Made by a program: the position numbers and the translations under genes. Shown here piece by piece: positions 11,090-63,383 of a stretch of DNA of 64,000 nt. Below the pieces are notes generated by a model. That model did not search any database. It worked only from the letters and a program-made list of their open reading frames with translations, and was not told the origin of the DNA. The stretch's first letter is position 1. Each line of letters begins with the position of its first letter. This stretch comes from Melampsora larici-populina 98AG31 (Eukaryota > Basidiomycota > Pucciniomycetes > Pucciniales > Melampsoraceae): NCBI RefSeq assembly GCF_000204055.1, contig NW_006768845.1:196471-260470 (forward strand). Direction: 5' to 3'.

Positions 11090-14000
11090 ATGAAAGTTGC
11101 ACGGTACAGTATCCAGAGCTTCCTTTCATCAGGTTACTGGCTATTCCTTCCAGTGTTGTCCCTCCTACCCTATGGTAGGAAGGTACAAACGCAAGACAAT
11201 CCAGAAAACCGATATCAGGAAGTCAACTGGATTGCTGATTTGTTAGTTGACACCTGCTGTTCTGACTTGGGATACATATGACTTGTTGGGCCACTGGAAG
11301 CACGAGAAATCAAATGACATCCAAGAAATTCGTTCTGTCTAATCAACACGTCTTTCAGGGAATTGTTTGATCCTCAACCAATATTAGATTCCACTCCGGA
11401 ATTGCTGTCTGAATGACCTGTTAACCTTTTGGTTTACTATGATTAAGAATCCAGTTATCAGGACAGATACGCGGCTGACATGTTCGTTCCTTTTCCACAG
11501 GCCATATACTCAATTATACACTTCGCTGGCTCTTCCTTGCATATAGACACTTGTGTTTTTGCTTTGGTCAATGAGTCGCTGCGAAAGAAGAACGCCGTCA
11601 TATTCGAAGCTCCTCAAAGTGAATTTCCTCGAGCTTTACTTGTACACTGTTGTATACCTTCGCGGGTCTTGAGTTGAATTTTCCTTGAGATGTACTATGT
11701 GAGATTCGCAAATTCAATTGTCTTACAGGTCAAAGGTGTGCAGTCTCGAAGAATTGCCACATGTGAAGAGGAATATTGCTCAACCATCATAAAGGTACAG
11801 CCATTCCGGATTTGCTTGTCGCAATCTTTTGAAAAAAGAAAGTTAGCAAACTCTTAACCTAACTCAAATTTCAAATGGCCTATGGGTTTATAGCATCACC
11901 CACAAATCACTATGAAGAGCATTAGTATTACCAATTGCAAATTGATTCCAGAACCAGTTTTCATTCAATATGCCCTTTGTCCACTACGATACTCAGATCA
12001 AGAGCCGCCATGCCGAGAAAAAGATATCCGGAGTTTCACTGGCTGATGCCAATCGTGAACTGATGACCAACGTCTGTAAGCGCTCAACTCAGCGATGGCA
12101 AAAGATTTTACTCGAAACTGGTTCTGTGATCCGAGACAAAGCAACCTACCTACGCACTGGCCCACCTTATGCATTGAATGAACACGATCTTCAACTGATA
12201 TTTGAAATCCTTGAAGAGGACTCGACCCTGATGTTGGATGAGATCAGCGACATCTTGGAGGACCTCACTGAGAAAAAGCCATGCATTTCAACCTTACAAT
12301 CCACCATCACCAAACGGCTTAACTATAGCTTGAAGAAAGGTCAAACTGTTGATCCTCGGCAGTCCGAAGAGCAGCGAGCCGAGTATGCTAGAAGGGTTGC
12401 TAACCTGCCTTCCCAGTACTTAGTTTTCCTCGGTGAGTGCAGTTTATTTTATGTCAATGTCTTCTTCAGCTGACCCCTCTCTTTAGACAAGGTTGGCGTG
12501 AATGAACGTGATGTCGTTCGCACTCACCTTCGGGCACCAGTGGGTCAACGTGGACATCGTCTTCGTCGGAAACGTGAAGGAGAGCACTGGACTCTGTGTG
12601 GCGCAATCTGCGAGCAAGGATTTCTAGCTGGAGCTGTTGTTGAGGTCGGATTTGATCGGGAAGGTTTTGAAACCTTCCTGGAGTTCGTATTGGTGAGTAC
12701 TTTACAACTTCATCTATTCTCTATCTATACTATAACGAGCTGATCATATTTTGACTCAGCTTCCCCGAATGAATAGATACCCCGATATCAACTCAGTCCT
12801 CATCATGGACAATGCGCCTATCCACAAGCGAGGCAACATCGAAAACCTGTGCTGGAACGCTGGTGTTCTTCTTGTCTATCTGCCCACCTTCTCGCCTGAC
12901 AAGAATCCGATTGAAAAAGCCTGGTGGGTTATGAAGGCCTTCTTAATACGCTCAGGTGATTTTAAACGGGCCTTGGATAAAGGAAGATGTCTCTTGAAGA
13001 CATGCAGCGAGTTATTTACTGCTGAAATAATGACTTCTCTAATCCGAGGAGGGGGCCATCAGCCTGCTTAAGATTGCTGGTTCTTTTCTATCTTACTTCT
13101 TTCTGTGTTTTAGCTTTCTACTCCACTGATTAAATACAATCAATAATTCACAGACTATTACAAAGTCAAAAGAAGTTTGCTTGCATCTTCTGACAAATGA
13201 GCCAAAACCAAAACAGAGTGTAATGGGCTCGATCTGATTAAGATCAGATGCATATTAAGCATTAATCAAATTACCAATGCTCATCCAGTCAATCTGCTCA
13301 AGATCATCAAATTCATCAAATTCATCAAATGAAAGATGAGTGTCAATTGTACTGTAGAACAGAGACCAGCTCTACAGTACACTTGTGAAAGCGAGTCTGT
13401 CTCCTCGGCTTCAATTGATCGAGATCGAATGGCGAGATCAAATGGCTAATGATATTTAATCATCCATCCACTTTATCGTATTTTTACAAGTGCTTCACTC
13501 ACCACTACTCACTGATGCTCATGATCTCAACTCACATTCATCAATTGTTCAATTGATTCAGATTTAATCCAAGAATGAATGAAAATTGACTGAATAGAGA
13601 CCAGCTCTCTCTCATAAGCAAACACAAAATTATCACATTCCTATACATTCCATTAAACAGATAGACTTTATATCATCCTAACAATTTGAAATGTGATGTC
13701 AATTGATGAATATGATTTGATCCGTGTATAAATCGATCGAGAACAATTCACATCGATAAGATCTGAAATTCACATCGATAAGATAAAAAATGAGATAAAA
13801 TGATGATTGATGCCATCTTGATGAACTTTGATGGATTTTGATCAATTGATTTTGAAAACCATCGAGTGGTTTGATATGATTCGATCCGCGTATAGATCAA
13901 TCGAGAAAAGTTCACATCGATAAGATTCAAAAAGATGAGATCGAATGATGATTTTTGAAAACCATCCAGTGGTTTGATTGTTAACAAATGGATCGAGAAT

Positions 14001-32000: not shown

Positions 32001-33179
32001 CAACAAAAAACACGCTTTTGTGACCAGTGCAGATGCAAGGAAAGGTCTGTCTCATATTGCAGTACAAGTCCTCTTCTACAACCCCCTTTATCCAGTTGTA
32101 ACACCAACTCAAAACTCGTCATCCAATGAGTTGACTCATTCTCTCCTGGATGCTACTGACATAGTATATGTTTTTGAGGGTTCTTCTTTCAAGGATGTCG
32201 GTCAAGGCTGCTATATTATTCCATCGGTCATGCGCGACATGCTTGGATCTGTTCATCTTGAAAGGTTGATTGACCGATACTATGATGAATTAGCTAAATT
32301 AAAAACCCAGCCCAGCAACGGTGAAATTTCCGATTAAATTAAAGAAACACTTTTTGTAGATACTATTTACAACTCACTCAATCACACATGAATGTTTAGG
32401 CCTATATTACTGAAATACATTGCTCAGAAAGCACATTTGGCACTTCTGCACGCTCCCACAGCCTTTTTTTTTTCTCCTCTTAATTTTTTTTTTTTTTGGA
32501 TGTGGGTGACCGAAAAGGGGTTTTTTCCGGGTCAAAATGCCAAAAACCGGCGTATGTGGGTGTCCAGAAAGGGGACTTTTTAGGATTTTTCCCAAACCTG
32601 ATAATGATATAGGGGACTGTCCTCGTCACCCACATCAACCGGTGCATTCCAGGGTCCTACACGTGATCAGTTCACTTAGTGACAGCCTCAAGGGAGACTA
32701 AAGAGCTGCAGGTGTGCTAGGGTGTGCTTACTGCATGGCTAGTTGAACTGATGAGGGCATGCTTCAGGTGTACAGCTGTTGAATTGTACAGTTGGTGAAG
32801 TAGACAGCGGTTGAATGGTTGCTGCTCAGTGCTGGTTGCTCAAAGCGGAAGGTGGCTGAAACTTTACAAAAGTTTATTCATCAAAGGTGTATGGGTTTTG
32901 GGATAATCTGATGTATAATCTTTGAGATTTTACAGCCAAATTCAAGGTTTTATCTGGTAAAAGACTTAGGTTTCAAGTTTTCATATTTTCTTTTTTCAAA
33001 AGATTGCAACAAGCAAATCCGGAATGGCTGTAAGTGAATAAGTGATAACATGTGACATAAGCGAGCGTCCCAAGATCAAATCAGATTATACTTGAACTAT
33101 CAAACTCTGACAGGTATCAATGAGAGCAATACATAGAGGTCTGCTAAACTCGGGGGGTCAGATTGTGAAGATGGATTGA
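11090..33179 (+). CDS. Predicted small secreted protein, intron 4 filled by a 21-kb transposon nest
   Basis: Five exons fit: 11090..11241, 11359..11406, 11467..11665, 11729..11794 and 33114..33179, giving 176 aa. The N-terminus MKVARYSIQSFLSSGYWLFL continues hydrophobically and looks like a signal peptide. Exon 4 ends ATAAAG followed by G-TA, and TA is the target site of the Tc1 element that fills 11798-33030. On the right, TAAGTG completes what was a GTAAGT donor, and 81 bp downstream a GACAG acceptor opens exon 5 in phase, which ends ...GQIVKMD and a TGA. Without the nest intron 4 would be about 86 bp. GT is still present at the left junction, so splicing of a giant intron is possible but unproven. 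The exon 2/3 junction uses a weak GTCTGA donor and is the least certain. I do not recognise a family; a secreted effector-like role is inference. Confidence 0.55.
11970..13071 (+). CDS. Tc1/mariner DD34E transposase (element A)
   Basis: Three exons, 11970..12432, 12487..12692 and 12760..13071, join through GTGAGT donors and TTTAG/CTCAG acceptors into a 326-aa open protein. The N-terminal part is a helix-turn-helix-like DNA-binding region ending before LRTGPPYALNEHD. The catalytic DDE_3-type domain follows: the first Asp (FLDKVGVNERD) is created exactly at splice junction 1, the second is in VLIMDNAPIHK, and Glu is in SPDKNPIEKAWW, 34 residues after the second Asp. No stop or frameshift is seen. 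It should cut at the CAGCC ends and insert at TA. It lies 172 bp inside the left end and convergent with the cargo gene. Confidence 0.85.
13072..14101. repeat. AT-rich spacer of Tc1-A with tandem repeats
   Basis: This is the intergenic part between the transposase and cargo gene 3' ends. It holds a 9-bp repeat (CATCAAATT, about 13304-13330) and a diverged duplication of roughly 164 bp. The copy near 13712 reads GATTTGATCCGTGTATAAAT and the copy near 13876 reads GATTCGATCCGCGTATAGAT; each is followed by GTTCACATCGATAAGAT-like sequence. AAACCATCGAGTGGTTTGA recurs at 13856 and, with changes, at 13957. No coding frame is supported. Confidence 0.6.
14102..15315 (-). CDS. Tc1 cargo gene A, 3' exons (same family as cargo B and C)
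   Basis: Three exons are clear: 15315..14879, 14807..14559 and 14491..14102, joined in phase by GTGAGT/GTAAGT donors and CAG acceptors. They correspond one to one with the last three exons of cargo B (467, 246, 519 nt) and cargo C (470, 246, 624 nt); here 437, 249, 390 nt. Shared landmarks are DFERFKVVVSENRGKSMGVT (B: FFKAVRGSPLKECGFTVTM) before the first junction, MLDVWAELI before the second (B: HMILWARLL), and a C-terminal block YLTFCRIPENN...LIDFLKSQGIGHGPV that looks SAM-like. The 5' exons lie on the far side of, or are cut by, the element at 15419-32658, so this copy is probably broken. The function is unknown. It is convergent with the transposase. Confidence 0.6.
15438..15600 (+). repeat. 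Subterminal repeats, left end
   Basis: Four spaced copies of a motif close to ATGTGGGTGACC-AAAGGGGACTTTT, starting near 15439, 15486, 15531 and 15574. Related copies occur at the right end of the same element. Such arrays often act as transposase binding sites; that role is inference here. Confidence 0.75.
15810..20038 (+). pseudogene. Large transposase-like gene of the 8-bp-TSD element (decayed)
   Basis: Exons fitting splice signals and frame: 15810..16140, 16225..16650, 16738..17840, 17926..19144, 19211..19420 and 19495 to about 19930, then the Gypsy-1 insertion. Exon 2 has a Cys/His cluster (CSQCQVEDRPGGKDLACHCG, then a KNHW motif) that may bind zinc. Exon 4 holds the best-conserved-looking blocks: ILSIGADGAPTELCAQ, VQGPKHARKTGTNQLSS, PWKHGSEPCEHIFGWMRI. 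The acidic/Glu and DG(A) residues suggest a DDE-type transposase, but I cannot name the family. Four in-frame TGA codons (17367, 17724, 18280, 18415) break exons 3 and 4 while the frame continues on both sides. Together with the retrotransposon insertion they make this copy non-functional as read. Confidence 0.6.
20044..20989 (-). repeat. Gypsy-1 3' LTR (946 bp)
   Basis: On minus it begins TGTCAGCCCCGAGCCCTATA and ends in AGCTCACA. It includes GTTATTAAGGGAATTCAATA, the spot where the other LTR carries an inserted element. No difference from the other LTR was noticed by eye. Confidence 0.93.
21186..22043 (-). pseudogene. Gypsy-1 integrase core and C-terminal part
   Basis: The integrase catalytic core continues the preceding frame after a TGA codon (...VVVD, stop, FSRRVRFLPC). 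Visible are VIISDRDPKFTSEFW (second catalytic Asp region), STAYHPQTDGLAERCIQTFE (catalytic Glu region, DD35E type), and a C-terminal LRDPFVGPFVISKLVGPNAV followed by RKHPVFPVSLIKKY, the GPY/F-like module. There is no chromodomain. The stop between the first catalytic Asp and the rest disrupts translation. Confidence 0.85.
22056..23141 (-). pseudogene. Gypsy-1 RNase H and integrase zinc-binding region
   Basis: RNase H landmarks are FRLYVDASFEGLGAALHQV (first Asp), SPQLEALALVWALEKLHYYL (Glu), EVITDCTGVRSL (Asp) and the ADGLSRM end. Then comes the integrase HHCC region (CHDEFLSGHMGVDRTLERV ... SSCDRCQKANKATGKRYG) and MDFVTALPPGGRDNYNSALV of the catalytic core. It is cut off from RT by an in-frame TGA and from the rest of integrase by another. 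Confidence 0.85.
23214..23990 (-). pseudogene. Gypsy-1 reverse transcriptase
   Basis: Polymerase motifs are present: SRLCGDFRALNTYTLPDRYP, TTMDVFKGFHQ, YLKMPFGIKNAPAFFQRMMD, and FIDDIIIF with the catalytic Asp pair (Phe in place of the usual Tyr), then GHLVSG. Upstream a TAA separates it from the gag-protease frame (...RLIAKFKD, stop, FGLGDSPLG). Downstream a TGA follows GFASYY. Both sit inside otherwise continuous polyprotein frame, so this copy cannot make full Pol unless the stops are suppressed. Confidence 0.9.
24036..27663 (-). pseudogene. Gypsy-1 gag-protease polyprotein, split by a CACTA-type element
   Basis: Two open segments, 27663..27131 and 26364..24036, join in the same frame when the 763-bp insertion and one TTA duplicate are taken out. 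The joined product is about 940 aa. It has coiled-coil-like N-terminal helices, a gag core (FNGEGEYNHQEFIDWVDQV, FKGTARQWLLDVM), a zinc-knuckle variant CNTCGSTDPSHVWKTC (C-x2-C-x6-H-x4-C), an acidic stretch, then the retropepsin motif ALLDSGASCSVVGSQYL. It ends at a TAA where Pol should continue. Confidence 0.85.
26365..27127. mobile_element. 763-bp CACTA-type non-autonomous element in Gypsy-1 gag
   Basis: The left end CACTACGCCAGATTGAAAAT and the reverse complement of the right end (CACTACACCAAATCAATAAT) form imperfect inverted repeats of about 40 bp. The flanking TTA at 26362-26364 and 27128-27130 is a 3-bp TSD. The CACTA ends and 3-bp TSD fit the CACTA/EnSpm superfamily. No transposase fits in this length. 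Its insertion splits the gag frame exactly. Confidence 0.88.
27408..28149 (-). pseudogene. Gypsy-1 upstream ORF (ORF0-like), probably spliced
   Basis: A frame starts MSDKRSSSARSRTEPSRYGN. A GTAAGT donor about 180 nt in and an acceptor GGCAG before GCCGAGGCCAAG give an in-phase junction to AEAKYNELWQKLKLAYLEWE. One in-frame TGA follows EWEVA, then the frame stays open through WLQFYFRNGTKSW to the FNRRRGK stop at about 27408. It overlaps the start of gag in another frame. The role is unknown; a nucleocapsid-like or accessory protein is a guess. Confidence 0.5.
28150..29917 (-). other. Gypsy-1 5' leader region
   Basis: Lies between the 5' LTR inner edge and the first ORF. It contains a 34-bp tandem array and otherwise AT-rich sequence without a convincing frame. 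The first bases inside the LTR on minus read ATTTGGGGGCCTCATCG; this is where the primer binding site should be, but I could not match it to a tRNA. Confidence 0.5.
29278..29393. repeat. 34-bp tandem repeat, about 3.4 copies
   Basis: CGAGTGAGGGTATGAGGCGC-type units start at 29278, 29312, 29346 and 29380 (last partial). The outermost unit is the most diverged. The array lies in the Gypsy-1 leader. Confidence 0.88.
29918..31990 (-). repeat. Gypsy-1 5' LTR, interrupted by a 1124-bp element
   Basis: The LTR sequence at 29918-30313 and 31438-31990 equals the 946-bp LTR at the other end when the inserted element and one AAC duplicate are removed (2073 - 1127 = 946). As the promoter LTR it is probably inactivated by the insertion. 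Confidence 0.92.
30314..31437. mobile_element. 1124-bp CACAG-ended CACTA-like element in the Gypsy-1 LTR
   Basis: The left end CACAGTGTACAACAAAAATG and the reverse complement of the right end (CACAGTGTCCACCAAAAACG) make inverted repeats of about 38 bp with a few mismatches. AAC at 30311-30313 and 31438-31440 is the 3-bp TSD. No protein frame of note lies inside, so it is non-autonomous. The ends differ from those of the 763-bp element, so a different source family moved it. Confidence 0.88.
31996..32337 (+). pseudogene. 3' end of the transposase-like gene, beyond Gypsy-1
   Basis: The frame ...LAKTLVVYK just left of Gypsy-1 (before 20043) continues directly as LVNKKHAFVTSADARKGLSH after 31995 and stays open to a TAA at 32337. 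This confirms that Gypsy-1 landed in this gene. An intron between about 19930 and 20002 (acceptor CGTTTAG) is needed to reach this frame; its donor is uncertain. Confidence 0.65.
32499..32658. repeat. Right end of the 8-bp-TSD element: subterminal repeats and TIR
   Basis: Two plus-orientation copies of the GATGTGGGTGACC-AAAGGGG motif (about 32499 and 32542) precede the terminal inverted repeat (32624-32658), whose inner part carries the same motif in the opposite orientation (GTCACCCACATC). Confidence 0.75.
32667..32986. other. Right flank of Tc1-A (5' side of cargo gene A)
   Basis: By comparison with cargo B and C this should hold the start of cargo gene A on minus. An ATG followed after about 25 nt by a GTAAGC donor lies near 32760, but the first exon could not be confirmed. 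Confidence 0.3.
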
Positions 33180-35424: not shown

Positions 35425-36639
35425 GTGATCCCTGGACTAGCAAACGCAACCACGTCTCCATCTTACCGTGCTCCTTTAGAGGAGGAGGACTCTGATAGTG
35501 AAACTCCGATCCCTTTTCTCGACGCCGATTCTAGCCTTACCGGTAGCGAGATCGATATGTCTGACACCAACATGACCTCTCTCGAAGACATACAACGCAA
35601 GCTTGCGGAGCTTTCCACCTCATTGGCTGAAGAACGCCTGATGCGAGGACAAGCTGAAGCCAGATACCAGCAGTCCGAAGCTCGTTTAGCGGCGTTGGAA
35701 TCCCGAGGCCCATCTGCACCTGCTGCAGCCACTCAACCACCCACTGCGCCACAGCCACCACCAGCTGAACCGGTCCTGAAGGGCCCCAAAGTCTCGACGC
35801 CCGATAAATTCAACGGCGCTCGAGGCGAACCCGCAGAGATCTTTGCGAGTCAAGTCCAGCTCTATATGCTGGCACACCCCTACCTCTTCCCCGACGACCG
35901 AAGTAAGGTGGTTTTCTCGCTGTCTTACCTCACGGGAGCAGCCAGCAGTTGGGCGCAACCCTTGACAAAGGAGTTATTCGACCCCGCTACCGCCCACCTC
36001 GTAACCTTTGAACGCTTCGTTACAAATTTTAAAGCTATGTATTTCGATACTGAGAAGAAATCGAAGGCGGAACGCGCGCTGCGAAACTTATCGCAGAAGA
36101 CCACCGTGGCCGCGTATACCCATGAATTTAACATTCACGCAACTTCTACTGGCTGGGAAACTCCGACGCTCATTAGTCAATACGAGCAAGGTTTGAAAAA
36201 GGAGATTAGAGTGGCAATGGTTATGACGCAAGAGGATTTCACGTCAATTGAACAAATCACTAATTTAGCTATCAAGATAGACAGTAAATTACACGGCGCG
36301 ACCAACCCAACCTTCCATACGCCAAGCACGAGTGCAGGAATCTCAGACCCCAATGCCATGGACTTATCAGCCGCCTACGTTAGATTGTCCGAAGAGGAAC
36401 GAGCACGACGTATGCGAGCGGGTTTATGCTTCCGCTGCAATGGCCAGGGTCACATCTCCAGCGCATGTCCCGATCGTAGAGCTAGTAGGAAAGGGAAGGG
36501 TCGAGGTGGTTATCAATCAAAAATAGCTGGATTGGAAATTAAAGTCGCAGAGTTGAGTAATCAGAGGGTGAATCATACCAGTAGTTTAGAAGGAGTAGGA
36601 CGAGCTGAAACTTCAAAAAATGGAGAAGCTCAGGATTGA
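35425..36639 (+). CDS. Gypsy-2 Gag
   Basis: 404-aa structural protein. The N-terminal part is helical (LEDIQRKLAELSTSLAEERL), followed by a Pro/Ala linker and the retrotransposon gag core (FNGARGEPAEIFASQVQLYM ... LTGAASSWAQPLTKELFD). Near the C-terminus is a canonical CCHC zinc knuckle, CFRCNGQGHISSAC (C-x2-C-x4-H-x4-C), with basic residues around it. It assembles virus-like particles and binds the genomic RNA. The ORF opens upstream of an in-frame internal ATG (35563); the first ATG at 35425 was kept. The stop at 36637-36639 overlaps the Pol frame. Confidence 0.92.
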   Translation: MIPGLANATTSPSYRAPLEEEDSDSETPIPFLDADSSLTGSEIDMSDTNMTSLEDIQRKLAELSTSLAEERLMRGQAEARYQQSEARLAALESRGPSAPAAATQPPTAPQPPPAEPVLKGPKVSTPDKFNGARGEPAEIFASQVQLYMLAHPYLFPDDRSKVVFSLSYLTGAASSWAQPLTKELFDPATAHLVTFERFVTNFKAMYFDTEKKSKAERALRNLSQKTTVAAYTHEFNIHATSTGWETPTLISQYEQGLKKEIRVAMVMTQEDFTSIEQITNLAIKIDSKLHGATNPTFHTPSTSAGISDPNAMDLSAAYVRLSEEERARRMRAGLCFRCNGQGHISSACPDRRASRKGKGRGGYQSKIAGLEIKVAELSNQRVNHTSSLEGVGRAETSKNGEAQD

Positions 36640-39600
36640 AGGTTGTGCCCATCCTGAGCCACCTGGAGAATTTGTCATCAATTAATGTGGGATCTAGTAG
36701 AATGAACTTGTGCAATACAAACGACCCGCGCATTTTTTTACACACCACATTATCCATATCCCAAATTCCCCGAGCCACACCGTCCCAAACATTTCCCGCT
36801 ACGTTCCTCATTGATTCAGGTGCTACGCACGATGTGCTCAGTGAATCATTTGCCTACCACGCTGGCTTGATAGCCGGTGCTGATCGACATGACCAATTGA
36901 TCACTGGATTCGACGGCTCTGAGAGCCGATCTTCCTTCAAGACCCACCTTTTTATCAAATCCGACCCATTACCGACCCCATTCATCATTACAAGACTCAA
37001 AGACTCGTACGACGGCATACTTGGCATGCCATGGATCAAGAAAAACTTTCACCTGATTGACTGGAGTAAAAGTATGGTACACCCAGCCGAGACTCACGTT
37101 GCAACCACTTCATTGGTTTCGTATTGGCCGAAAACACCCTTATCTGGCCACTCGTTGGACCCCATGAGGGACGCTAGGCACAATTACGAGGGGATGTGTG
37201 TCAATTCTGACACGTTAGCATCCCCGCAATGTGAGTTCGAGAGTCCAGTTAATCCTAATCACCTTGAAACAGATGACAACCCTCTATCTCCCGATAGTTC
37301 CCCCCTTATCACGATTACACCCACCACGAACAACGAAAACCACGAACACATCACGACACAAGACCCGGATACGAGCATTGCGGCCGTAGTGAATACGGCC
37401 TCGTCCGTCCCGCCACAGAACCCCGACGATCCCAAGGAGGAGCCTCAGGGGCACGCAAGGAACAGTGACGAGGGGGCTAATGTCTTTTTAGATATATCAA
37501 CGCCCCCGCAATGTGAGTTTATTACTGATTCCAACCCATGTTCAACCCGAACAGCTGGCAAGCCTGTTTCTCCCTTGAATAACACATCAATCCAGGTCAC
37601 AGCAGCCAAGACGTCCTGGTCAACCTCAGCACGACTCGCCGCCGACAAAAAGAAACTCGAACCCGTCAAAGCTCTAGAGGAAATTGTCCCGTCTAGGTAT
37701 CATAGGCACTTACACATGTTTAGGAAGTCCAATGCCCAACGCCTACCCCCGAGACGCCGCTACGACTTTCGTGTCGAACTGATACCAGGAGCTCAACCGC
37801 AGGCTAGCAGGATAATTCCATTATCACCAGCCGAGGACGCTGCTTTGGAGGAATTGGTGAATTCAGGCTTAGCCAACGGGACTATCCGTCGAACCACTTC
37901 GCCATGGGCTGCCCCTGTGTTATTCACAGGGAAGAAGGACGGCAATCTGCGCCCTTGTTTTGATTACCGTAAGCTCAACACCCTAACCGTCAAGAACAAA
38001 TACCCACTACCGTTGACTATGGACTTAGTCGACAGTTTGCTGGATGCCGAAGACTTTACCAAGCTTGATATGCGCAATGCGTACGGTAATCTTCGAGTAG
38101 CAGAGGGTGATGAGGATAAACTGGCCTTTATATGCAAACAAGGCCAGTTTGCACCTCTGACTATGCCTTTTGGGCCAACAGGCGCCCCTGGTTATTTCCA
38201 ATACTTTATTCAAGATATCTTATTGGGACGTATAGGTAAAGACACCGCGGCCTTCTTGGATGACATTATGATTTATACAAAGCCTAAAGTAGATCACGAA
38301 GGCGCTGTTGATGGCGTACTTGACGTCCTATCCAAGCATACACTCTGGCTGAAACCCGAAAAATGCGAGTTCTCGAAGAAGGAAATTGAATACCTTGGCC
38401 TTATTATCTCTAAGAATAAAATCAGAATGGACCCGACGAAAGTGAAAGCCGTCAAAGAATGGCCAGCACCCCAATCAGTATCTGAACTCCAACGCTTCAT
38501 TGGATTCGCCAATTTTTACCGACGTTTCATCGACCAATTTTCAAGAACCACAAGACCACTTCATAATCTGACCAAGCTCAACGCGCACTATGTCTGGGAT
38601 GAAAAATGCGAAAAAGCCTTTGAGAGCCTGAAGACCTCCTTCACCACCGCACCCGTACTGAAGATAGCCGATCCATACAAGCCGTTTACTCTGGAATGTG
38701 ACTGCTCCGATTTTGCATTAGGAGCAGTGCTATCACAACGCAGCGAGGACGATGGAGAACTCCACCCAGTAGCTTACCTGTCCAGATCACTAGTCCAAGC
38801 TGAAAGGAACTACGAGATCTTTGATAAGGAACTACTGGCGATTGTCGCGTCTTTCAAAGAGTGGCGCCACTACCTGGAGGGAAACCCCAACCGCCTAGAT
38901 GTGATAGTCTACACGGACCATCGTAACCTGGAGTCTTTCATGACAACCAAGCAGCTTACCCGCAGACAGGCTCGATGGGCGGAGACACTGGGCTGTTTCG
39001 ATTTCGTGATTAAATTCCGACCCGGCAGTAAAGCTACCAAACCAGATGCCTTATCTAGAAGACCGGACCTGGCGCCTACTAACGAGGAAAAATTGACCTT
39101 TGGCCAGTTGTTAAGACCCGAAAACATCGGCCCAGACACGTTCCCGGTCGAGCTTGCTAGCGTAGAGGGGTTCTTCGAAGATGAAGTGGTTGCACTCGAC
39201 AATTCTGAGCACTGGTTTGAGGTGGATGTATTGGGCATCGCTGAAACTGACACTAAGGCACCGGACATTCCTACGGATGATCAAATTATACAACGAATCA
39301 GAGACGCAAGCAAAGAGTGTGACAGGATAGGGGAACTGATGAACGCAACCTTGAACCCGATATCAGCCAAGACGAAAGCAGCTTTGAAGCATTACAAAGT
39401 ACAAGATGGTATCCTCTACAACCAAGGTAGAATAGAGGTACCTGACGTCGACGACATCAAATACTCAATACTAAGAAGCAGACACGACTCATTGCTTGCG
39501 GGCCACCCAGGTCGAGCAAAGACTCTCGGATTGGTCAGGAGAAGCTTCATCTGGCCATCTCAGAAAGCGTACGTCAACAGGTACGTGGACGGTTGTGACT

Positions 39601-40766
39601 CTTGTCTAAGGGTTAAATCAACCACACAGAAACCCTTTGGGACTCTGGAGCCATTACCGATACCGGCTGGCCTGTGGACGGATATCTCATATGACCTTAT
39701 CACCGGCCTCCCTGCATCAAACGGCTACGACAGCATATTAACCGTGGTGGATAGATTAACGAAAATGAGTCATTTCATTGCTTGTACTGAATCAATGTCG
39801 GCTGAAGACCTAGCAGATCTCATGATGAAGAACGTATGGAAGCTTCATGGAACTCCCAAGACGATAATCTCAGATAGGGGTAGTATTTTCATTTCACAGA
39901 TCACGGAAGAAATTGACAAACGCCTAGGTATACGCCTTCACCCGTCAACCGCTTTCCACCCACGTACAGACGGTCAAAGCGAGATCGTCAATAAAGTAAT
40001 CGAACAATATTTACGACATTTCGTTAAATATCGACAAGACGATTGGGAAAGTCTACTGCCCACAGCTGAGTTCTCGTATAACAACAAAGACCATGAATCC
40101 ACGGGCATTTCACCGTTTAAAGCTAACTATGGATTTAACCCATCATTCAACAAAGTACCATCAGCTGAACAGTGTGTGCCAGCAGTAGAGAAGAGGATGC
40201 AAACACTCGCCGAAGTGCAATCTGAATTAAATCAATGTTTAGAATTAACTCAAGAGAAGATGAAAGAACAATTTGACAAAAGAGTACAACAAACACCAAG
40301 ATGGGAAGTAGGAGACCAAGTCTGGTTGAACGGACGAAACATTTCGACAACTAGGCCAAGCCCAAAATTAGAAAATAGATGGCTAGGTCCTTTCTTCATT
40401 ATCCAAAAGATATCAAATTCTACTTATAAATTGAATCTCCCTCTTTCCATGAAAAGCGTCCATCCTGTATTTCATGTCTCTGTACTCAGGAAACATAACC
40501 CGGATACAATACATCAACGAAAACAACCCCCAGTCGAACCAATCATAATACAGGATGAAGAAGAATGGGAAGTCAACGAGATACTAGATTGTAGAAGAAG
40601 GTACAACAAGAAGGAATACTTTGTGAGTTGGAAAGGATTTGGCAAGGAAAACAATTCATGGGAACCCGAAATCAACCTCAAGAATAGTCAAGATTTAGTT
40701 AATGAGTTTAATTTAAAATATCCCGACGCAACAAATAAGTACAAAAGGAGAAGGCGGAAGAAGTGA
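36609..40766 (+). CDS. Gypsy-2 Pol (protease, RT, RNase H, integrase, chromodomain)
   Basis: An open -1 frame of about 1385 codons. Counting from 36636, the order is: protease FLIDSGATHDVLSE (Asp near residue 60); a variable linker; RT with LRPCFDYRKLNTLTVKNKYP, KLDMRNAYGNLRV, TMPFGPTGAPGYFQ and the FLDDIMIY catalytic motif near 541; RNase H (FTLECDCSDFALGAVLSQRS, NYEIFDKELLAIV, VIVYTDHRNLE); integrase HHCC (HDSLLAGHPGRAKTL ... CDSCLRVK) near 955; core with ISYDLITGLP, TIISDRGSIF and HPRTDGQSEIVNKVI (DD35E); GPY/F (NRWLGPFFIIQKI); and a chromodomain (WEVNEILDCRRRYNKKEYFV, then SWKGFGKENNSWEP) near 1311-1345. The chromodomain should tether integration to particular chromatin. No stop or frameshift is seen. 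Confidence 0.95.
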   Translation, partial: NFKKWRSSGLKVVPILSHLENLSSINVGSSRMNLCNTNDPRIFLHTTLSISQIPRATPSQTFPATFLIDSGATHDVLSESFAYHAGLIAGADRHDQLITGFDGSESRSSFKTHLFIKSDPLPTPFIITRLKDSYDGILGMPWIKKNFHLIDWSKSMVHPAETHVATTSLVSYWPKTPLSGHSLDPMRDARHNYEGMCVNSDTLASPQCEFESPVNPNHLETDDNPLSPDSSPLITITPTTNNENHEHITTQDPDTSIAAVVNTASSVPPQNPDDPKEEPQGHARNSDEGANVFLDISTPPQCEFITDSNPCSTRTAGKPVSPLNNTSIQVTAAKTSWSTSARLAADKKKLEPVKALEEIVPSRYHRHLHMFRKSNAQRLPPRRRYDFRVELIPGAQPQASRIIPLSPAEDAALEELVNSGLANGTIRRTTSPWAAPVLFTGKKDGNLRPCFDYRKLNTLTVKNKYPLPLTMDLVDSLLDAEDFTKLDMRNAYGNLRVAEGDEDKLAFICKQGQFAPLTMPFGPTGAPGYFQYFIQDILLGRIGKDTAAFLDDIMIYTKPKVDHEGAVDGVLDVLSKHTLWLKPEKCEFSKKEIEYLGLIISKNKIRMDPTKVKAVKEWPAPQSVSELQRFIGFANFYRRFIDQFSRTTRPLHNLTKLNAHYVWDEKCEKAFESLKTSFTTAPVLKIADPYKPFTLECDCSDFALGAVLSQRSEDDGELHPVAYLSRSLVQAERNYEIFDKELLAIVASFKEWRHYLEGNPNRLDVIVYTDHRNLESFMTTKQLTRRQARWAETLGCFDFVIKFRPGSKATKPDALSRRPDLAPTNEEKLTFGQLLRPENIGPDTFPVELASVEGFFEDEVVALDNSEHWFEVDVLGIAETDTKAPDIPTDDQIIQRIRDASKECDRIGELMNATLNPISAKTKAALKHYKVQDGILYNQGRIEVPDVDDIKYSILRSRHDSLLAGHPGRAKTLGLVRRSFIWPSQKAYVNRYVDGCDSCLRVKSTTQKPFGTLEPLPIPAGLWTDISYDLITGLPASNGYDSILTVVDRLTKMSHFIACTESMSAEDLADLMMKNVWKLHGTPKTIISDRGSIFISQITEEIDKRLGIRLHPSTAFHPRTDGQSEIVNKVIEQYLRHFVKYRQDDWESLLPTAEFSYNNKDHESTGISPFKANYGFNPSFNKVPSAEQCVPAVEKRMQTLAEVQSELNQCLELTQEKMKEQFDKRVQQTPRWEVGDQVWLNGRNISTTRPSPKLENRWLGPFFIIQKISNSTYKLNLPLSMKSVHPVFHVSVLRKHNPDTIHQRKQPPVEPIIIQDEEEWEVNEILDCRRRYNKKEYFVSWKGFGKENNSWEPEINLKNSQDLVNEFNLKYPDATNKYKRRRRKK
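36615..36621 (+). promoter_or_regulatory. Candidate -1 frameshift slippery site (A AAA AAT)
   Basis: In the gag frame the codons read TCA AAA AAT. The heptamer A-AAA-AAT fits the X-XXY-YYZ rule for -1 slippage, and the -1 frame is open from 36609 onward directly into Pol. This would explain Gag-Pol production, since Pol has no ATG near its start. No stimulatory structure was modelled. Confidence 0.55.
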
Positions 40767-50627: not shown

Positions 50628-52316
50628 TCCAAAAAAGAGCCTCCAGCGCGGGCTAAGAGTCGCACAGTTGGCCACAGGTGCGACTCTGTTTTTTTGTCCA
50701 GCTGGAATACGTAACGATCGAGCCAGTTGTTTCTGGCTGAGCCGTAAAGCTCGGAAAACATATAATCACACGTTTTGGACACCATGTGGGAAAAAAAAAA
50801 CTCTCTTTGGGTGTTTCGTGTGACCTCCTCACAAGATCCAAATATCACCACTCGAAGTAATCGAGATTGTGATCCAAGTGATCGATCTGATCATGCCCGA
50901 TATTCACCCAGTGTGGTTGTGTAGATTAGATGGCCATGTCTGTGCCGATAAATGATAATGAGAGAAAACCATGTATGTCCGTGCAGCAATAAAATAAATT
51001 AGCTGTGTCGCCCTACAGCTGAAGACCAAGTGCAACCTCCAATCTATTCTATCCATCGTTTGAACATACAAGTTCCTCAATATACTGTTTATATCATTCA
51101 ATACCCAAGTTATCCATACATCGTACAAACCTCGGTTTATAATCCTCCTTTTACACCTCGTTTTATCAAGTTCCAATAATCCAGCAATCATGCAGAATTC
51201 TTCTTTCTCCCGTGCTAGTACTGCCATGACCAACTTGTCTATTGAAGGTGTTACCGGACAACGTGAGTATGACTTCATTATAAGAAATAAAAGGTTGTAC
51301 AACCTTTGTTAAGCTTACGCATCTGTTGTTTATAGGAAGCGGCATGAGAGGTCCTTCGACTGGCGGGACTTCGATCCAAAGGTTCTCCAATGGCGCGCAT
51401 CCTTATCGTGATGGCCGTCAGGACTCGCTAGAGGCTCATTCGCAGTACAGTAATGATCATCAACATCAACGTGCCATGTATCTCGATGGTCGTGAGGAAT
51501 CAATTGAAGGCCATTCCCAATACCGCTACAATTTCCACCATAATCGCGAAAATTACATCAGTGGCCTTTCGCAGTCCACTTACAATTCAGGTTATGATGC
51601 CCGTCTCAATGGGAATCATTTTCGAGCGCCCTCTCCCGATGACGAATCGGCCAATAGCTCCTCTGAATTTCCTGCTAGTACTCCTGCATCCATGCCTACT
51701 TTGACTCAAGCATCATCGACTCGATCACAATCTCGACATCCTTCTCAAACAACTGCTGACGCGAGACCCACCAGTCGAGGCTCGAATTTTGATGAGCGCT
51801 CTCTGAACCAACTTTGCACCTCATGGCTTCACGTTTCACAAGATTCTGCAACCGGCAATGATCAAAAATCAGCAGTCTTCTGGAATAAGATAGCAGATGA
51901 TTTCAATCTCCGGATGGATGCAAAATCCCAGCGCACTTCGAAATCCCTCAGTGCTCGATGGGCGACTCTCAACACTAGCATGTCAAAATTTGCGGCTTGT
52001 TTTTCTCAAGTTGTTACAGTCAGTTGCAGAAAGTTTGAAAAAATCGCAACCAAAACCCAGCAAGGTGGTCCGTGCAATTCGGGGAACCAGGCGGAATCTG
52101 GCAGAGACCTGTAAGCCATGTGGTGCCAAACCCCTCCAGCCCCATAGTGACCGGGTTCTCTGGACTTCTGACTCCTGTCCAAGGATACAGGCCAGAACGG
52201 AAAAAATTTTCCTCACCCGTTTACACCCAACCAACCGATCTCATCCACATCCAATCCTTGCCTTCCATTCCATTTCAGCTCTCTGGTTTCTTCCCCGTGA
52301 TTTCCCTGTAAAATCA

Positions 52317-53476
52317 ATGGGGTATCAATTCTACTCGGAGAGCATCAAGCTCTTGGCCACCCAGATGGCCATCGACGGCGTCGCCCTCGACACAATCAAT
52401 GTCACACTACGAACCAAGATATCAGCCGTCTCCCTCTGGCGCTGGAAAACCCTCTACGCCGCAACCAACAGTGTGATCCACGACCCTAAAGGTTACCAGA
52501 CCCGTGGCCGACCCCATGTGTTATCCGAAGAGCATCTCGCTGTCCTCTACGAAATCGTCACCGGCAACCCCTCGATCTACCTTGACGAGATCCAACAGAT
52601 CCTTCTACGACTTTCAGACATTCCAATTTCTAGAGCCACAATCAGCCGGGAGTTACACCACCGCTTAGGGCTGTCGCATCTCGTCGCTCGCGGGGTTCAT
52701 TCGGCGCAGTCGATTGAAGACCGCACCGCTTACATGCTGAGAGTTGGAAACATCCCACCAGAGTATTTTGTATTCATTGGTTCGTCTCTCTCTCTCCATC
52801 TTTCCAGAGTGTGACTTGGCCATTAACAAAGCTTCTCCTCGATTAGATGAGTCTGGCATCAGGGGTCGTGATACGCTTCGTTACAGGTGTTGGGCTCCCA
52901 AGGGCGGTCGCAGTGTCCGACAGCAGCGCGACAACGATACTGAGCATTGGACTATCCTTCCTGCCGTGTGCGAGCAAGGAATGATAGCAGGCGTGGTCCA
53001 CGAAGGCCCGGTCGAACGAGTCCATGTGGAACTTTTCCTGGAAAGGGAGTTGGTACGTGCCATGTGTGCTTCCAGTCGACAGGATGTGACTGACTCTGAT
53101 CTGATCGTCTCAACGACTCTAGCTTCCTGTCATGAACCGTTACCCTGCAGTCAACTCGGTACTGGTCCTCGACAACGCACGAATTCACCACGGAGGGATC
53201 ATCGAGCAGCTTTGCCGAGATGCTGGGGTTCTTTTAGTATACTTACCAGCTTACTCGCCGGACATGAATCCCATTGAAAACTGCTTCCACAGCATGAAGG
53301 CTCAAATGAGGAGGGATAACATCTGGTTTCACGTTGAGGACTTGAGTGACTATATTTTGATGGTGGCCGCTCAAGTGATGACCCGCAAGCTGTTACAACC
53401 GTTAATTGCTTTCTGTGGATACGCTACCGCGGACTATTGGATGGCATACAACGGTCCAATTGATGTTGATGAATAG
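52317..53476 (+). CDS. Tc1/mariner DD34E transposase (element B)
   Basis: Three exons, 52317..52779, 52847..53052 and 53123..53476, encode 340 aa. Exon 1 (463 nt) and exon 2 (206 nt) have the same lengths and phases as in element A. The N-terminus has a helix-turn-helix region (IKLLATQMAIDGVALDTINV ... AVSLWRWKTL) and a second DNA-binding block after GRPHVLSEEH. The first catalytic Asp (FI-DESGIRGRD) is again made at the first splice junction. The second is in VLVLDNARIHHGG and Glu in SPDMNPIENCFH, 34 residues later. A nearer acceptor (TTCCAG at 52806) is possible, but only the acceptor ending at 52846 yields the conserved DESG motif. No stops. Confidence 0.92.
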
Positions 53477-54184
53477 GAACTTAGATTTTCTCACTTTGTT
53501 TGAAGGATCTTCTATTGTGTGTTAGTGTTGCAGTGCAGAAGTGGCAAACTGGCCTAACCCAAACCCCATGCTTAGTAAATAACGTATTTGAACAATTACC
53601 CAATTTGTCTGAATGACAAAACTTTGTGACTTTGTGAGTTACAGTGAGAGTGAGTGAGTTTGTTAAATTGAAGTGCCGAACCCAGTGAGATTTGCTTCAC
53701 CAAATCCAGGAAGATTTCACCTGTCCTGTTGGATTTTGGTGATGTGAGCTTTGAGCTCGTCTCACAGGAGAGGAGAGCTCGAAATAGCTCAGGACAGGAG
53801 CATGTTGGCCTAAGTCGGCCAAACTTCGGCCAACGTCCGCCAAACATGAAGCAAGAGAAATGCGGCAGACATTTCGAGATTTCGAAATGTCTGGGTGATT
53901 CAAAGGTTCACAAAACCTTCGGTGGCTCAGGTGACGCTCATGAGCCTGTTGAGAACGGCAGAGCCTTTCGCTCGCTCACACTGGAATGGACACTTGGTCT
54001 TCATCAAACTTGTGATTTCATCACATTGGTCATGCGGTTCATTGCTCATCACATGTTTCGTTCACTGTTCACAACCACAACTGTAACTAAGGTTAGGTAC
54101 TGACCATACACAAGCTAGCTCACACACAAGATAACCAAAAACTATCAAATTGGTGACATAACACGCGAGGGTAGTGACACCAAA
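53477..54184. other. Spacer between transposase and cargo gene in Tc1-B
   Basis: About 700 bp between the two convergent genes. It contains repeated words such as GGCCAAACTTCGGCCAACGT and AGATTTCGAAATGTCT palindromes, and no supported coding frame. Confidence 0.55.
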
Positions 54185-56340
54185 CTAATCATCATCACTG
54201 TCAATAGTGGGGCAATCTGCCCTCCCTTTACCCTTGGCCAATCTTCGCTCTTCGTTCTCAACAGCGGCGAGATAGAAACGACGAGATTGGGTGAATAGCT
54301 CGATCGCGCTAGCCCAAGATATTCCCCAGGCTTGGACATCACGCACATTCATGACTTCAGGAAATAAGAAATAGTGAAACCCGGTCACGCCATACGCCAT
54401 GAGGATGGTAGCCACCTCTTTAGATGCCTTATTGCTCAAGTCGCAGTAGGCCAAATAATCATCTAGGGTATTGCGGAACTGGACCCGTTGGAGCGTGTCG
54501 AAATTAATAGTGATGTGGGTGCCCTGCATTTCCGCATAACTGCCTGGTCTGACGTACGGGCGATCTTCGATTGGCTTGTGACGCTTAGGTTCAGGGAGCG
54601 GAGTTGACTGATGAGGCCGCTTAGGGAGGGTTATGTCTTTCCAGACAAACTCCTCATGGTCCGGTGGTGGATCGTCGATGGTGACATCCTTGGTGTTGTC
54701 GGCCTGTAGCAAAGTAAAAAAGATGTGAGATTCAATCGAGGAAATACCAGGTCGCAGACACACTTACCAACAAACGAGCCCATAAAATCATGTGGCGAAA
54801 CGTTAAGTCCATCTTCTGGGACAGGTCGGCTTTATTGAAAATACGATAGCCCTTGTTGTTGTTGGTTTTCATGGAGGAGTGACGCATCTGCAAAGACTTG
54901 AGGGCTTTCGTGACCGGGTCCGCAGGTCTACATCGAGCAAGGTCGTTCGGCGTGGTATTCACGTTGTCGATCTCGTTCTGAGCGCGCAAGCGCGCTTTTT
55001 TCTTCAAAACCGCCTGCAAAGAACAGGTTGGTAACGTTAGCAAACATTACATGGATGTGATGCAGGGTTTGCGGATATAAACAGAAAGAAACACTTACAT
55101 CTTCGGCTTCTTGAGCCGATTTCTGCGGGTTCTCCATAGTGACAGTGAAACCGCACTCTTTGAGAGGCGATCCCCTGACAGCCTTAAAGAAACGAGCGAC
55201 ATCGGCATTTGAACTTAACGGGACCTCCTTGCCCTTCGCAAACTCTTCGTGTTGCTTGACGTGGCCGGAGATGATGACCAAATTCTTGGCATCCGCAGTT
55301 TTGAGAATCGCAACATTCCCACAGTTGTCATCGTCCGAAGTATCAATCTCGCTAGCGATGCGGAAGAGGCGGCTTTTCAGGTGGGTGATACTTTCCCCGT
55401 TCGTGTCAAAGGTTTGATTGGTGGTAGGGAGAGAGATCGCGGAGTAAGCCACCTTCTTCTTAGACTTAGAAGGGCCCTTCATCAAGTCTGCTTCCTTGGG
55501 CAAGTAGAGAGTGAACGCCACAGATAGAGAGCGCATGGGATCCGCGGGTGCTTGCTCGCCAATGTCTGATGTTAAGCAATCCAAAACAATGGCCAACGTT
55601 AGCATGGAATGGCTTTGAGCACATCCAGACCGACTTACCTTGCGATTGCTTCGTGATCGCTATCACACCCATGTCCGCCTCGCTGGACAGTCCCAGTATA
55701 ATCGCTTTTGGCTCTTTCGCATGGGCACCTGCTTGAGATGGTAGAAGTGAAACAGAAAAAGAGAGAAGAACATGAGGCACAAAAGGACGCTGGGAGGAAC
55801 GGTATATGTTATACCTTGTGATTTCATGGGGGTATCCTCCGGTGCATCAAAGGGCTGGCTGGACGAGCGTAGGTCAATCTCGATAGGGTATGTCGGGTTG
55901 GAAACGGGTAGCTGGCGCATTACTACACCCCAGAATCCCACGGTTAGCTAGCGGGAAGGCGAAATTTCAACCAGATTACTTACCATGGGACTTTGTGGGG
56001 GTCTCTTGAATCACTTGATCGAGATCAGGCAGGCTGGAAGACACCAGGGAGTGGATATCTTTTCCGGCGTAGAGCCCATGGTGGTAGTAGTGGGACAACA
56101 AGATAGGAGATTCCATCGGACTCGGCATGGGGATCCTGATCGAGGTCCCGGTTTGCTTTTGGGCCAGTGGACTCTCAAGCGCTCGTGCACGCTGAGCCCA
56201 ACTCCTGTCGTGGTTAACATGAGTCAGCTCGATTGCCAAAAACATCATAAGGGCGGATTTTGAAAGTCACGAGAAAGTTGCACTTACGGGCTAGGGGTCG
56301 AAACCATTCCACTTGGCACGGGTGAGATTTGGCGGTTCAT
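54185..56340 (-). CDS. Tc1 cargo gene B (567 aa, unknown function)
   Basis: Seven exons: 56340..56288, 56204..55984, 55922..55815, 55728..55639, 55565..55099, 55013..54768 and 54703..54185. All have GTAAGT/GTATAA donors and AG acceptors, and all phases agree. The product starts MNRQISPVPSGMVSTPSP. A Pro/Ser-rich N-terminal region is followed by a globular block (SLSVAFTLYLPKEADLMKGP ... FFKAVRGSPLKECGFTVTME), then a helical segment (GYRIFNKADLSQKMDLTFRH, ILWARLL) and a linker with the basic motif LPEPKRHKP. The C-terminal block YLAYCDLSNKAS ... FLFPEVMNVRDVQAWGISWA resembles a SAM domain in its 'FxxFL..L.. ..L..xGI' spacing. It has no transposase motif. The same family occurs as cargo A and C. 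A role as a transposition partner or host-interaction protein is inference. Confidence 0.8.
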
Positions 56341-57256
56341 GATGTGAAAGCGGTGGTGGATAAGAATTGTCAATCTGAACAGTGTTTGATTGAAAGTGAT
56401 GCAGGCTGAAGATCGAGGACAAGGGCTTGTGGTAGCTTGTGGTGCAATGCGATCAGGCCGTGAGTCAATCGTGCATCCCAAAACGGTCAGTCCAGAAAAA
56501 AAAGGACGGTCAACTTGTGGGTGAGATGGTTGCGGAAAGGATCGTTGGCATGGAATGGTGTAATCAACAAAATGAACTGGGATTCGGTATGGGTCAGAAG
56601 CTGATGGAGGTTTTTGGCGGGATGTGGCTTCCAGACGGCTGCCAGGTTTCGTATACTTCTAGATCGCGCATGGACCACATGACCTTTCGTTTGGCTCAGA
56701 TTTTTTCAAACTTTCTGCAACTGACTGTATGTTAAATGAAAGTGGAAAGACCCAAGCCGATCAGATCATGGATGCTCTCACTATGTATCAATCTGACACT
56801 AATTCGGCCTTCAAAGATATATCAAGCTACAATATTGTCAAAGACACTCCAAAATGGCAACTGAATCCTTCGTATGTGGAACATTGCGGTCATTTGAACG
56901 GCTCTTCAGAACACAGCGGATTCAATCTTGGAAGTGACCTCGAGAACTTACCTAAAATGGACCGACCTATGGGATCCAAACAGGCTAAGCGAGGTCGATC
57001 CAATCTCTCTGAGGAGTTGATCCCCCAGCTACTCGATAACCAAGCACAGATGTTACAGACTCAAAACTCTGTAGCTGAGTCTAACCGCGAGTTAGCATTG
57101 CAGGGCAAAGCGGCGCAAGAATCACTTCAAAGTATGGTGGATTACACCATTCTTACTACTAAGCTTTGCGACCTTGATGACGAAGCACGTGAAGAGCTCC
57201 AAGCCCGGCAAGCTGAGGTAATTCGGCGATCGCGCGCTCGCAGGGAACGTGAATAG

Positions 57257-61146: not shown

Positions 61147-63383
61147 ATGGCATCCCAAGACTCCCATTTCATCGCCCAAAAGCTGATTAATCAAGCTAAA
61201 AATGACTGCCAAGGTCCCTTTTTGGGGTGAGAATGTTTTTTTCCACACTCGTTTGGCACTATTCTGATGCTTGCTGTTGATTTATTACAGACCCATGGAT
61301 AATCCTAGCAGTCACGGAATGTCTGGCCAAATGGCTTTTGGATCCATAGGCCACCGTGCTCCGCCTTTTATGACTCCTTACAGTTATAGCAGTGCTGTAA
61401 AGATGTGAGAATTTTGTATTTCCATATCTTGATTGATAAAATTGCTGATACGATGTGCTGTTCATCTTAGGGGCATGGCCCACCCTGGCGGAAACCGGAT
61501 CTCCAGCCAGTTGACCGTGCCAAACTTAGGCCACCAAGCTCCGACGGCTTTGGCTCCAAATACTGCAACTGTGATTGTCAACGGGGCTAGCAACCCAAAG
61601 ACCAATCATGTCGAGCTTGACGATGACAGCAGTATTTGTGTGGATGAACTCGATTGGACGCCTCCTCCTTTTGACGAACTCGATTGGACCCCTCCTTTCC
61701 AAGCCTGCTCAGTACGAGTTTTTGAAGCCACCATGCAGTCGGACATCGCTACGGCCAGCCAATCCCATGGCAAGGGAAAGGCGATACATGTTGGTTCGGT
61801 CACTTTGAATGAATCTGATGAAGCTCCCATTGAGTCTTCCATCAAAGGTAATTAAGGTAAGATTGTTTCTTGTTACCCATCCTACTTCTACATCGTAACT
61901 TACAGAACTCCTTCAAAACAGGTCCGGTGGTGGAAGTCAACATAATGGGATCTTACAACCTGAAGCTCAGTTATTTAATGTACACTGAAAAGGGTGTGAA
62001 TCCCCTCAAAATCTCGAGTCAAAAGTTGAAAAACAGCATCACAAAATGGATGCCTTATCGAATCGATCCAACCACCAAGATCATCGACATCGACAACAAC
62101 TCTTTCATTGCCCTGAAAGATATTCTTTTCACTGTGGCCGATACGATTGATACCGATGCTCCGGCGGGTGGTAATAGTGCAATTTTCAAATTGGCTGACG
62201 CTAGTGGAACAGTCACCATCAACATTTATATTGATCGACATGAAGTTTTCAGTAGAAGCAAGTGTCGCAAACTTGTTGATGATCAAGATGTGCAAGACTT
62301 CTTTGCAGCGGTCCAGGATTGCCCTTTGAGAGAGGCCGGCATGACAATCTCGATGGCTGACCCTGCTAAGTCTGCCAAACTTGCTGACACTGTACGTACT
62401 CTTATTTGTTTACACTTGCTTTCCCTGTATACTGAAAGCCTTTCTACTTGTAGAAAATCGCGATGGCTCAAACCCGACTCAAAGCTATGAGCGCAATGAA
62501 CAATGTCACGGTCACTGCTTCTCAATTGACCGATTTGCTTCCTCTTGACCCACTACAAGTCCAACTTGAAGCTCTAATCAAGAAGTATGGCAGCCTCGAC
62601 AATCACAGCCAGGAGGGTTGGCGTGTGTATAAACCACACGAAGCATCCAAATACATGCAGATGAACTATGAGCACTTACACAAATGGGCTCAAGAATTGG
62701 TAAGCTCACATCAATATCTTTTTTTCATCAATTCTTATACTGATAATGTTTGTATTCAGGCCGAATCTCGTGCTGGAGTTGACTTAGATAACCCACCTAT
62801 GTATCTTGAAGGCTTCAAATGGACCGATGTCAAACGACCTCTGTCGACTGCCGCTCCACAACACTCAGCCAAAAGAATCAAAGGTTCCGACTCAAACTAT
62901 TCCCATATGGGCACCCCGGGTGGATACTCTGAGTGCCAGGGTTATCACATTGAGGTCAATCGAGAGGAGCTTGAAGAGTTGAAGAAGTATTGTACATTGG
63001 AGGAATTTCTGCTTGACACGGGGATAGCCCCTTTCCTCGTTGACGATCTTTCTGAGCGGTTGGCCAATCACCACATTGATAGTTTTGAACAATTCCTATT
63101 CCCAGATTTAATGAACATCCGCAACGTACTGGCTTTAGGAATTTCTTGGGGAATCGCAATGAAGCTCTTTTCTCAAAGCCAATTATTTTATCAACAAATG
63201 AAAAAGGAACTGGCCACCTGCAATCGAATCTTTGCTCGCGAGGGCCCCTATAACTTTAAGTCCTCCACCACCACCCCCCATAGCGGGCCAAGCAACTCGA
63301 CCCCGCGTGCGCGTCAAGCTGGACCAAGTTGTGTTCCTGACACAGCTCCTAAGGCTGGAACTAGTCGTTCCTCTGGTCTTTAA
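61147..63383 (+). CDS. Tc1 cargo gene C (636 aa, unknown function)
   Basis: Six exons: 61147..61226, 61291..61404, 61471..61847, 61922..62391, 62454..62699 and 62760..63383, all in phase. The product starts MASQDSHFIAQKLINQAKND. A variable middle region contains two near-identical DELDWTPP repeats. The conserved block follows (VNIMGSYNLKLSYLMYTEKG ... FFAAVQDCPLREAGMTISMA), aligning with cargo B FFKAVRGSPLKECGFTVTME. Exon 5 is 246 nt, exactly as in B, and ends HLHKWAQEL. The C-terminal SAM-like block reads YCTLEEFLLDTG ... QFLFPDLMNIRNVLALGISW. The tail is basic and Ser/Pro-rich. The intact frame supports a functional protein. The 3' end is followed by AT-rich sequence where the convergent partner should come. 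Confidence 0.8.

Follow-up and report, generated by a model that had tools for sequence, protein, structure and literature searches.

The window analyzed here is a stretch of 64,000 nucleotides from the rust fungus Melampsora larici-populina 98AG31 (contig NW_006768845.1, hereafter C81, positions 196,471 to 260,470). It contains Tc1-B, a Tc1/mariner transposon in which a transposase gene and a convergent second gene lie inside a single pair of terminal inverted repeats (TIRs). Tc1-B is probably a young cut-and-paste element of an old two-gene rust lineage, and its second protein probably acts as a partner or scaffold of the transposase. The genetics, that is, the pairing of the two genes across the genome, their co-divergence, and the purifying selection on both, mark the second gene as a part of the element that appears to have been kept across transposition.

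Ends, target site, and genes of Tc1-B

An earlier note on this DNA had placed perfect 29-bp TIRs and a TA duplication at the ends of Tc1-B (Table 1), and the inverted arms, the shuffled controls, and the paralogues of the target all agree with these boundaries. The arms at 52015–52054 and 56690–56729 share 93% identity over 40 nucleotides, and the first 29 nucleotides inside the TA match perfectly. A search with the 28-nucleotide end allowing up to three mismatches returned two matches in the window, which are the two ends of the element, and none in 100 shuffles. The flanks joined without the element were then used as query against the 98.3-Mb assembly (243 contigs). Uninterrupted paralogues of the target were found on contigs C58 (80% identity) and C79 (79%), with matches spanning 550 and 553 bases and no difference in length between query and target. 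A copy of Tc1-B on contig C63 aligns along 4,715 columns with 99.15% identity, and its flanks cannot be aligned with those of Tc1-B; in another subfamily, the copies C24a and C24b share 99.67% identity across 4,601 columns and have dissimilar flanks. Such near-identical two-gene copies at unrelated sites presumably arose by transposition. Chance similarity or mis-drawn boundaries were ruled out by the TIR shuffles, the independent copies, and the target paralogues. The sequence around Tc1-B (51326–52016 and 56730–57256) is a coding-like repeat, SANT/Myb-like by eye, and has uninterrupted relatives on C58 and C79.

Table 1. Coordinates of Tc1-B, Tc1-A, and a third two-gene element (positions in the window unless a contig is given).
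Feature	Position	Strand	Remark
Tc1-B	52017..56727		contig C81; both genes inside single TIR pair
Left TA target-site copy	52015..52016	.	
Left TIR	52017..52045	+	perfect, 29 nt; outer box common to family
Left inner conserved box	52066..52075	+	TGGTCCGTGC
Transposase exon 1	52317..52779	+	putative helix-turn-helix region
Transposase exon 2	52847..53052	+	first catalytic Asp
Transposase exon 3	53123..53476	+	second Asp and Glu, DD34E
Second gene exon 7	54185..54703	-	SAM-like C-terminal region, weak fold match
Second gene exon 6	54768..55013	-	conserved middle region
Second gene exon 5	55099..55565	-	predicted ubiquitin-like / PB1-like domain
Second gene exon 4	55639..55728	-	
Second gene exon 3	55815..55922	-	
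Second gene exon 2	55984..56204	-	
Second gene exon 1	56288..56340	-	start codon
Right inner box	56668..56677	-	TGGTCCATGC
Right TIR	56699..56727	-	perfect, 29 nt
Right TA target-site copy	56728..56729	.	
Tc1-A left terminal repeat	11796..11865	+	imperfect, 70 nt including TA
Tc1-A transposase, 326 aa	11970..13071	+	exons 11970-12432, 12487-12692, 12760-13071
Tc1-A second gene, 371 aa	14102..15355	-	exons 15355-14879, 14807-14559, 14491-14102; start codon uncertain
Tc1-A right terminal repeat	32963..33032	-	TA included; split off by ~17-kb nested insertion
Third element, second gene	61957..63203	+	right window edge
Third element, transposase	C81:260672-261824	-	just beyond window

The three-exon DD34E transposase described earlier was recovered as a protein of 340 amino acids with the triad D155-D240-E275, the last two residues spaced by 34. 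The Pfam family DDE_3 matched two of its exon reads above the cut-off, and the putative N-terminal helix-turn-helix region matched HTH_32, HTH_33, and HTH_Tnp_Tc3_2, in every case below the curated cut-offs. The second gene likewise has the convergent seven-exon structure proposed for it. Its predicted GT-AG exons run from 56340 down to 54185 and encode 567 amino acids with no internal stops. The predicted splicing of both genes is supported by homologous proteins that are continuous over the junctions: P0009–P0012 over both transposase junctions, and P0002, P0003, and P0004 (512–665 amino acids, from contigs of up to 2,418 bases) over the last two intron positions of the second gene. At the first junction, P0003 contains an insertion of the kind expected from an unspliced in-frame intron. 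The source label of these seven proteins, 'lgn', is one that we take to be an assembly of public read archives, and they are therefore probably cDNA. The suggestion that this copy could be active stands as far as the open frames under predicted splicing and the near-identical copies at unrelated sites carry it, and no further.

Seventeen two-gene loci were fetched to analyze the ends of the family, which were found partly with a pattern beginning with TAC and partly by inverted-repeat search. Both ends were recognized around both genes at 10 of these loci, and TA flanks both sides in nine of the 10. The ends share an outer box, approximately TACAGTnnnnTGCAnAAAGnATGAAA though not in every case, and an inner box resembling that of Tc1-B. 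A strict version of the inner box occurs at position 53 or 54 in 13 of the 20 ends and nowhere else in those 10 elements; variants that it misses are present in C2b, C61, C70, and one end of C38. Neither the pattern nor the inverted-repeat search found an outer end pair at the other seven loci, where C1a, C1b, and C78 have just the left end, C81b and C83 have an inner inverted similarity, and C22 and C5 gave nothing.

Pairing, co-divergence, and selection of the two genes

The window includes an older two-gene element, Tc1-A (11796–33032), whose genes are also convergent and whose transposase belongs to a distant clade. Three second proteins and two transposases served as queries against the genome, and the matches of a subset of these queries were clustered into loci. 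Pairs were counted within a distance of 9 kb among the transposase matches listed, and the counts are therefore lower bounds. In the Tc1-B-type clade, at least 42 of 54 second-gene loci have a transposase within 9 kb, and all 42 pairs are tail-to-tail; the gap between the genes exceeds 4 kb in three of them (C144, C42:398706, and C16). Searches with Tc1-A proteins yielded 56 second-gene loci in the clade of Tc1-A, at least 36 of them beside a listed transposase and again all tail-to-tail (36/36). Taking both clades together, every second gene with a listed transposase within 9 kb is convergent with it (78/78). The possibility raised earlier, that related copies would all lack the second gene, therefore does not hold.

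Not every match is paired. In the Tc1-A clade, Tc1-A queries detected no second gene at 52 of the 88 transposase loci. In the Tc1-B-type searches, the transposase at C3:2621188, first listed alone, gained a partner (C3:2623347) with another query. Four transposase loci first listed alone are members of clade 2. The C74 transposase, also first listed alone, is adjoined by a second-gene fragment in the same arrangement; the loci C18, C23:180562, C9:798807, and C8:503612 stay unpaired among the matches listed. Close to two clade members, at C8:503612 and C36:582207, there is a second gene that is oriented differently, but in both cases another transposase lies nearer to that second gene and is convergent with it. 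Among the 12 unpaired second-gene loci, C5 has a partial transposase adjoining it, C3:2762933 lies in a stretch with 1,325 N, and C7:1701858, C17, and C21 are matched in the C-terminal domain alone. An apparent lack of second genes of their own at 40 outgroup transposase loci (0/40, one with a neighbor's within 10 kb) was rejected, because the use of the Tc1-A second gene as query exposed the insensitivity of the Tc1-B-type queries behind this count. A long inverted repeat of about 340 columns, scoring far above shuffles, flanks the C74 transposase and may belong to some other repeat.

The two genes also diverged together. At 16 loci with enough of both genes, the protein distances of the second gene and the transposase are correlated (Mantel r = 0.858, p = 0.0001; 9,999 permutations, largest permuted value 0.49). 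FastTree trees of the two genes show the same terminal groups and disagree at nodes that are weakly supported in either tree. Over aligned positions, divergence reaches 74% among the second proteins and 55% among the transposases, and the association is therefore old. The distant homologue in Tc1-A would take it further back. The Tc1-A transposase also has three exons, the first two of 463 and 206 bases as in Tc1-B, and is 39.6% identical to the Tc1-B transposase. The second proteins of the two elements match over 267 columns with 25% identity (two-sequence BLASTP, E 1e-9; profile score 59 bits), and their genes share two intron positions, one before ANSF/AVLK and the other before AAGK/ADNT. 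This homology together with the shared intron positions makes it most likely that the second gene predates the split of the two clades.

Selection was assessed from the ratio of nonsynonymous to synonymous substitution rates (dN/dS, omega), a check that the earlier note had proposed for the second gene. In seven diverged pairs, omega is 0.069–0.354 for the second gene and 0.082–0.676 for the transposase; the values are rough in three pairs in which synonymous divergence exceeds 1.7 in one or both genes. Bootstrap limits were computed for six of the seven, and that of the C123/C1b transposase reaches 1.01. Outside the seven, the pair C81/C78 has an omega of 0.437 for the second gene, with only 106 codons, and 0.564 for the transposase; C3/C24a has 0.405, resting on seven changes, and C24a/C24b has no synonymous changes. 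The young pair C81/C63 is uninformative (second gene 1.26, 0.42–4.85; transposase 2.73, 0.45–4.55), which would be expected of copies that decay once inserted, with selection acting from one transposition to the next. On these ratios, both genes are under purifying selection between lineages. A host gene captured once, which the earlier note had also considered, is at odds with this selection and with the agreement of gene distances and trees.

Known elements and the role of the second protein

Tc1-B resembles fungal members of the IS630-Tc1-mariner superfamily in its DD34E triad, DDE_3 domain, TA target, and short inverted ends. The Tc1/mariner elements of Verticillium have one intronless transposase frame (PMC3441728) and, in the accessible part of that source, differ from the Tc1-B family, which has introns and a conserved second gene. 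The premise that classic elements encode only a transposase had to be corrected, since TBE of Oxytricha, Tec of Euplotes, and Sardine, Thon, and Anchois of Paramecium, all ciliate elements, are described in the available portions of their reports as having a Tc1/mariner transposase plus further genes (PMC4724952, PMC7325037, PMC3464196). The three TBE genes have an overall dN/dS of 0.1–0.3 (PMC4724952, in part), and the Tec/TBE group shares with the rust elements the presence of more than one gene under purifying selection. Among the extra ciliate genes in these excerpts are those of a tyrosine recombinase and of a zinc-finger/kinase protein, and others are uncharacterized frames; no tyrosine recombinase or zinc-finger/kinase Pfam domain was found in eight rust second proteins. 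The rust elements differ also in their fungal host, their single extra gene, and the convergence of all pairs found. A survey of rust transposable elements, in the sections available, treats Tc1-Mariner at the superfamily level and reports that Melampsoraceae have retained one TIR-Tc1Mariner family (PMC12210899). No description of a fungal Tc1/mariner element with two genes was found in the literature searched, which most subscription papers lay beyond. Multi-gene elements of this superfamily are known from ciliates, and within the reach of these sources a conserved second gene in fungal elements is apparently new.

Homologues of the second protein are, among the matches listed in protein searches of up to about 8,000 candidates each, just Melampsora entries and short unnamed contigs. 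MELLADRAFT_73283 of the same strain is 98% identical to it over 60% of the second gene, and five such proteins are annotated as uncharacterized or hypothetical in two Melampsora species; these annotations can be corrected, as proteins of this type belong to transposons. Pfam searches with eight second proteins at E 1 gave no convincing family, with three weak unrelated names in one member each, and the Tc1-B protein up to E 10 gave one weak, chance-level match, on exon 5. Searches of PDB sequences found no family, and a profile search found no proteins beyond those already known from the other searches. Model folding placed a ubiquitin-like domain in exon 5, with PB1 closest among the fold matches listed, and a weakly matching SAM-like fold at the C-terminus. 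Profile matches were absent for PB1 (PF00564; eight members up to E 1, and E 10) and for SAM (Pfam, E 1 and E 10). An acidic OPCA motif, conserved basic residues near strand 1, or both are hallmarks of PB1 domains. In the second-gene alignment, the exon-5 residues K23 and K29 are invariant in nine of nine rows, and in the expected OPCA stretch of 39 residues basic residues outnumber acidic ones in seven rows, with one tie and one reverse. A PB1 domain is joined to a transposase-derived protein in MUSTANG-B (PMC3435246); as the available text describes them, these are domesticated plant genes of MULE origin, with a Mutator transposase and a PB1 exon, and not a Tc1/mariner element.

Of the two roles suggested earlier for the second gene, partner of transposition or selected cargo, an element-encoded partner is favored over host cargo, and its part in transposition is proposed from the module types. 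The PB1-like domain and, less surely, the SAM-like C-terminus of the second protein belong to module types that bind partners and form polymers, and for this reason the second protein probably scaffolds the transposase complex and may aid the pairing of the two ends. The outer and inner boxes of each end would be the assembly platform; alternatively, a host factor could be recruited by the protein. Transposases of the Tc1/mariner superfamily are the standard example of enzymes that act without further factors, and this self-sufficiency is why they serve as tools. PIF/Harbinger, MuDR, and En/Spm combine a transposase with a second element-encoded protein, in other superfamilies and with other second proteins. 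A large old lineage with recent near-identical copies that keep the second gene suggests that the Tc1/mariner superfamily can evolve partner dependence or a lasting benefit; such dependence would parallel Harbinger and Mutator. A more far-reaching and tentative proposal is an obligate two-component branch, ancient in rusts, in which a DD34E transposase and a PB1/SAM-type polymerizing scaffold act on bipartite ends and have remained paired throughout the evolution of at least two deep clades. Tc1-B offers a protein pair with defined ends.

In the main rival explanation, the element encodes a regulator or an anti-silencing factor, which would act on host chromatin, RNA, or signaling, outside the transposition reaction. 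The genetics are equally compatible with it, and host signaling and chromatin proteins often contain PB1 and SAM domains. The excess of Lys/Arg over Asp/Glu in the expected OPCA stretch would favor a different binding partner. Nonetheless, nothing ties the second protein to silencing, and co-divergence with the transposase fits a direct partner at least equally; we consider a regulator rather unlikely.

A captured host gene, carried as cargo to the benefit of the fungus, is far less probable. Second-gene copies without a listed transposase exist, and at three loci (C7:1701858, C17:750178-750795, and C21:57804-58421) the C-terminal domain alone is matched, in two adjacent places, while no transposase is listed close by; at C7:1701600-1702800, there is an open frame of 258 amino acids with two copies. 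These three loci are possibly a domesticated derivative. Cargo does not fit the many diverged copies, the single orientation of all pairs, the congruent trees, the homologue in a distant transposase clade, or the near confinement of the listed protein matches to Melampsora. It is scarcely credible that two unrelated repeats came together by chance in Tc1-B, or that its second gene is an over-called frame: the introns are predicted, but the bracketing ends, the uninterrupted target paralogues, purifying selection, homologues continuous over the splice points, co-divergence, and consistent pairing largely refute such a reading.

Other elements of the window

The right end of Tc1-A lies apart from its genes, on the far side of a nested repeat (15419 to approximately 32658, about 17 kb). 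End matches on C76 and C13 fit Tc1-A-type elements of about 4.0 and 4.8 kb, judged from coordinates only. The nested repeat has inverted ends of its own (15412–15453 and 32624–32665) with CACGTG at both outer edges. Outer ends were not recognized for the third two-gene element, which crosses the right edge of the window (Table 1). Long frames at 21186–26315 and 35425–40766 look by eye like Gag-Pol of long terminal repeat retrotransposons.
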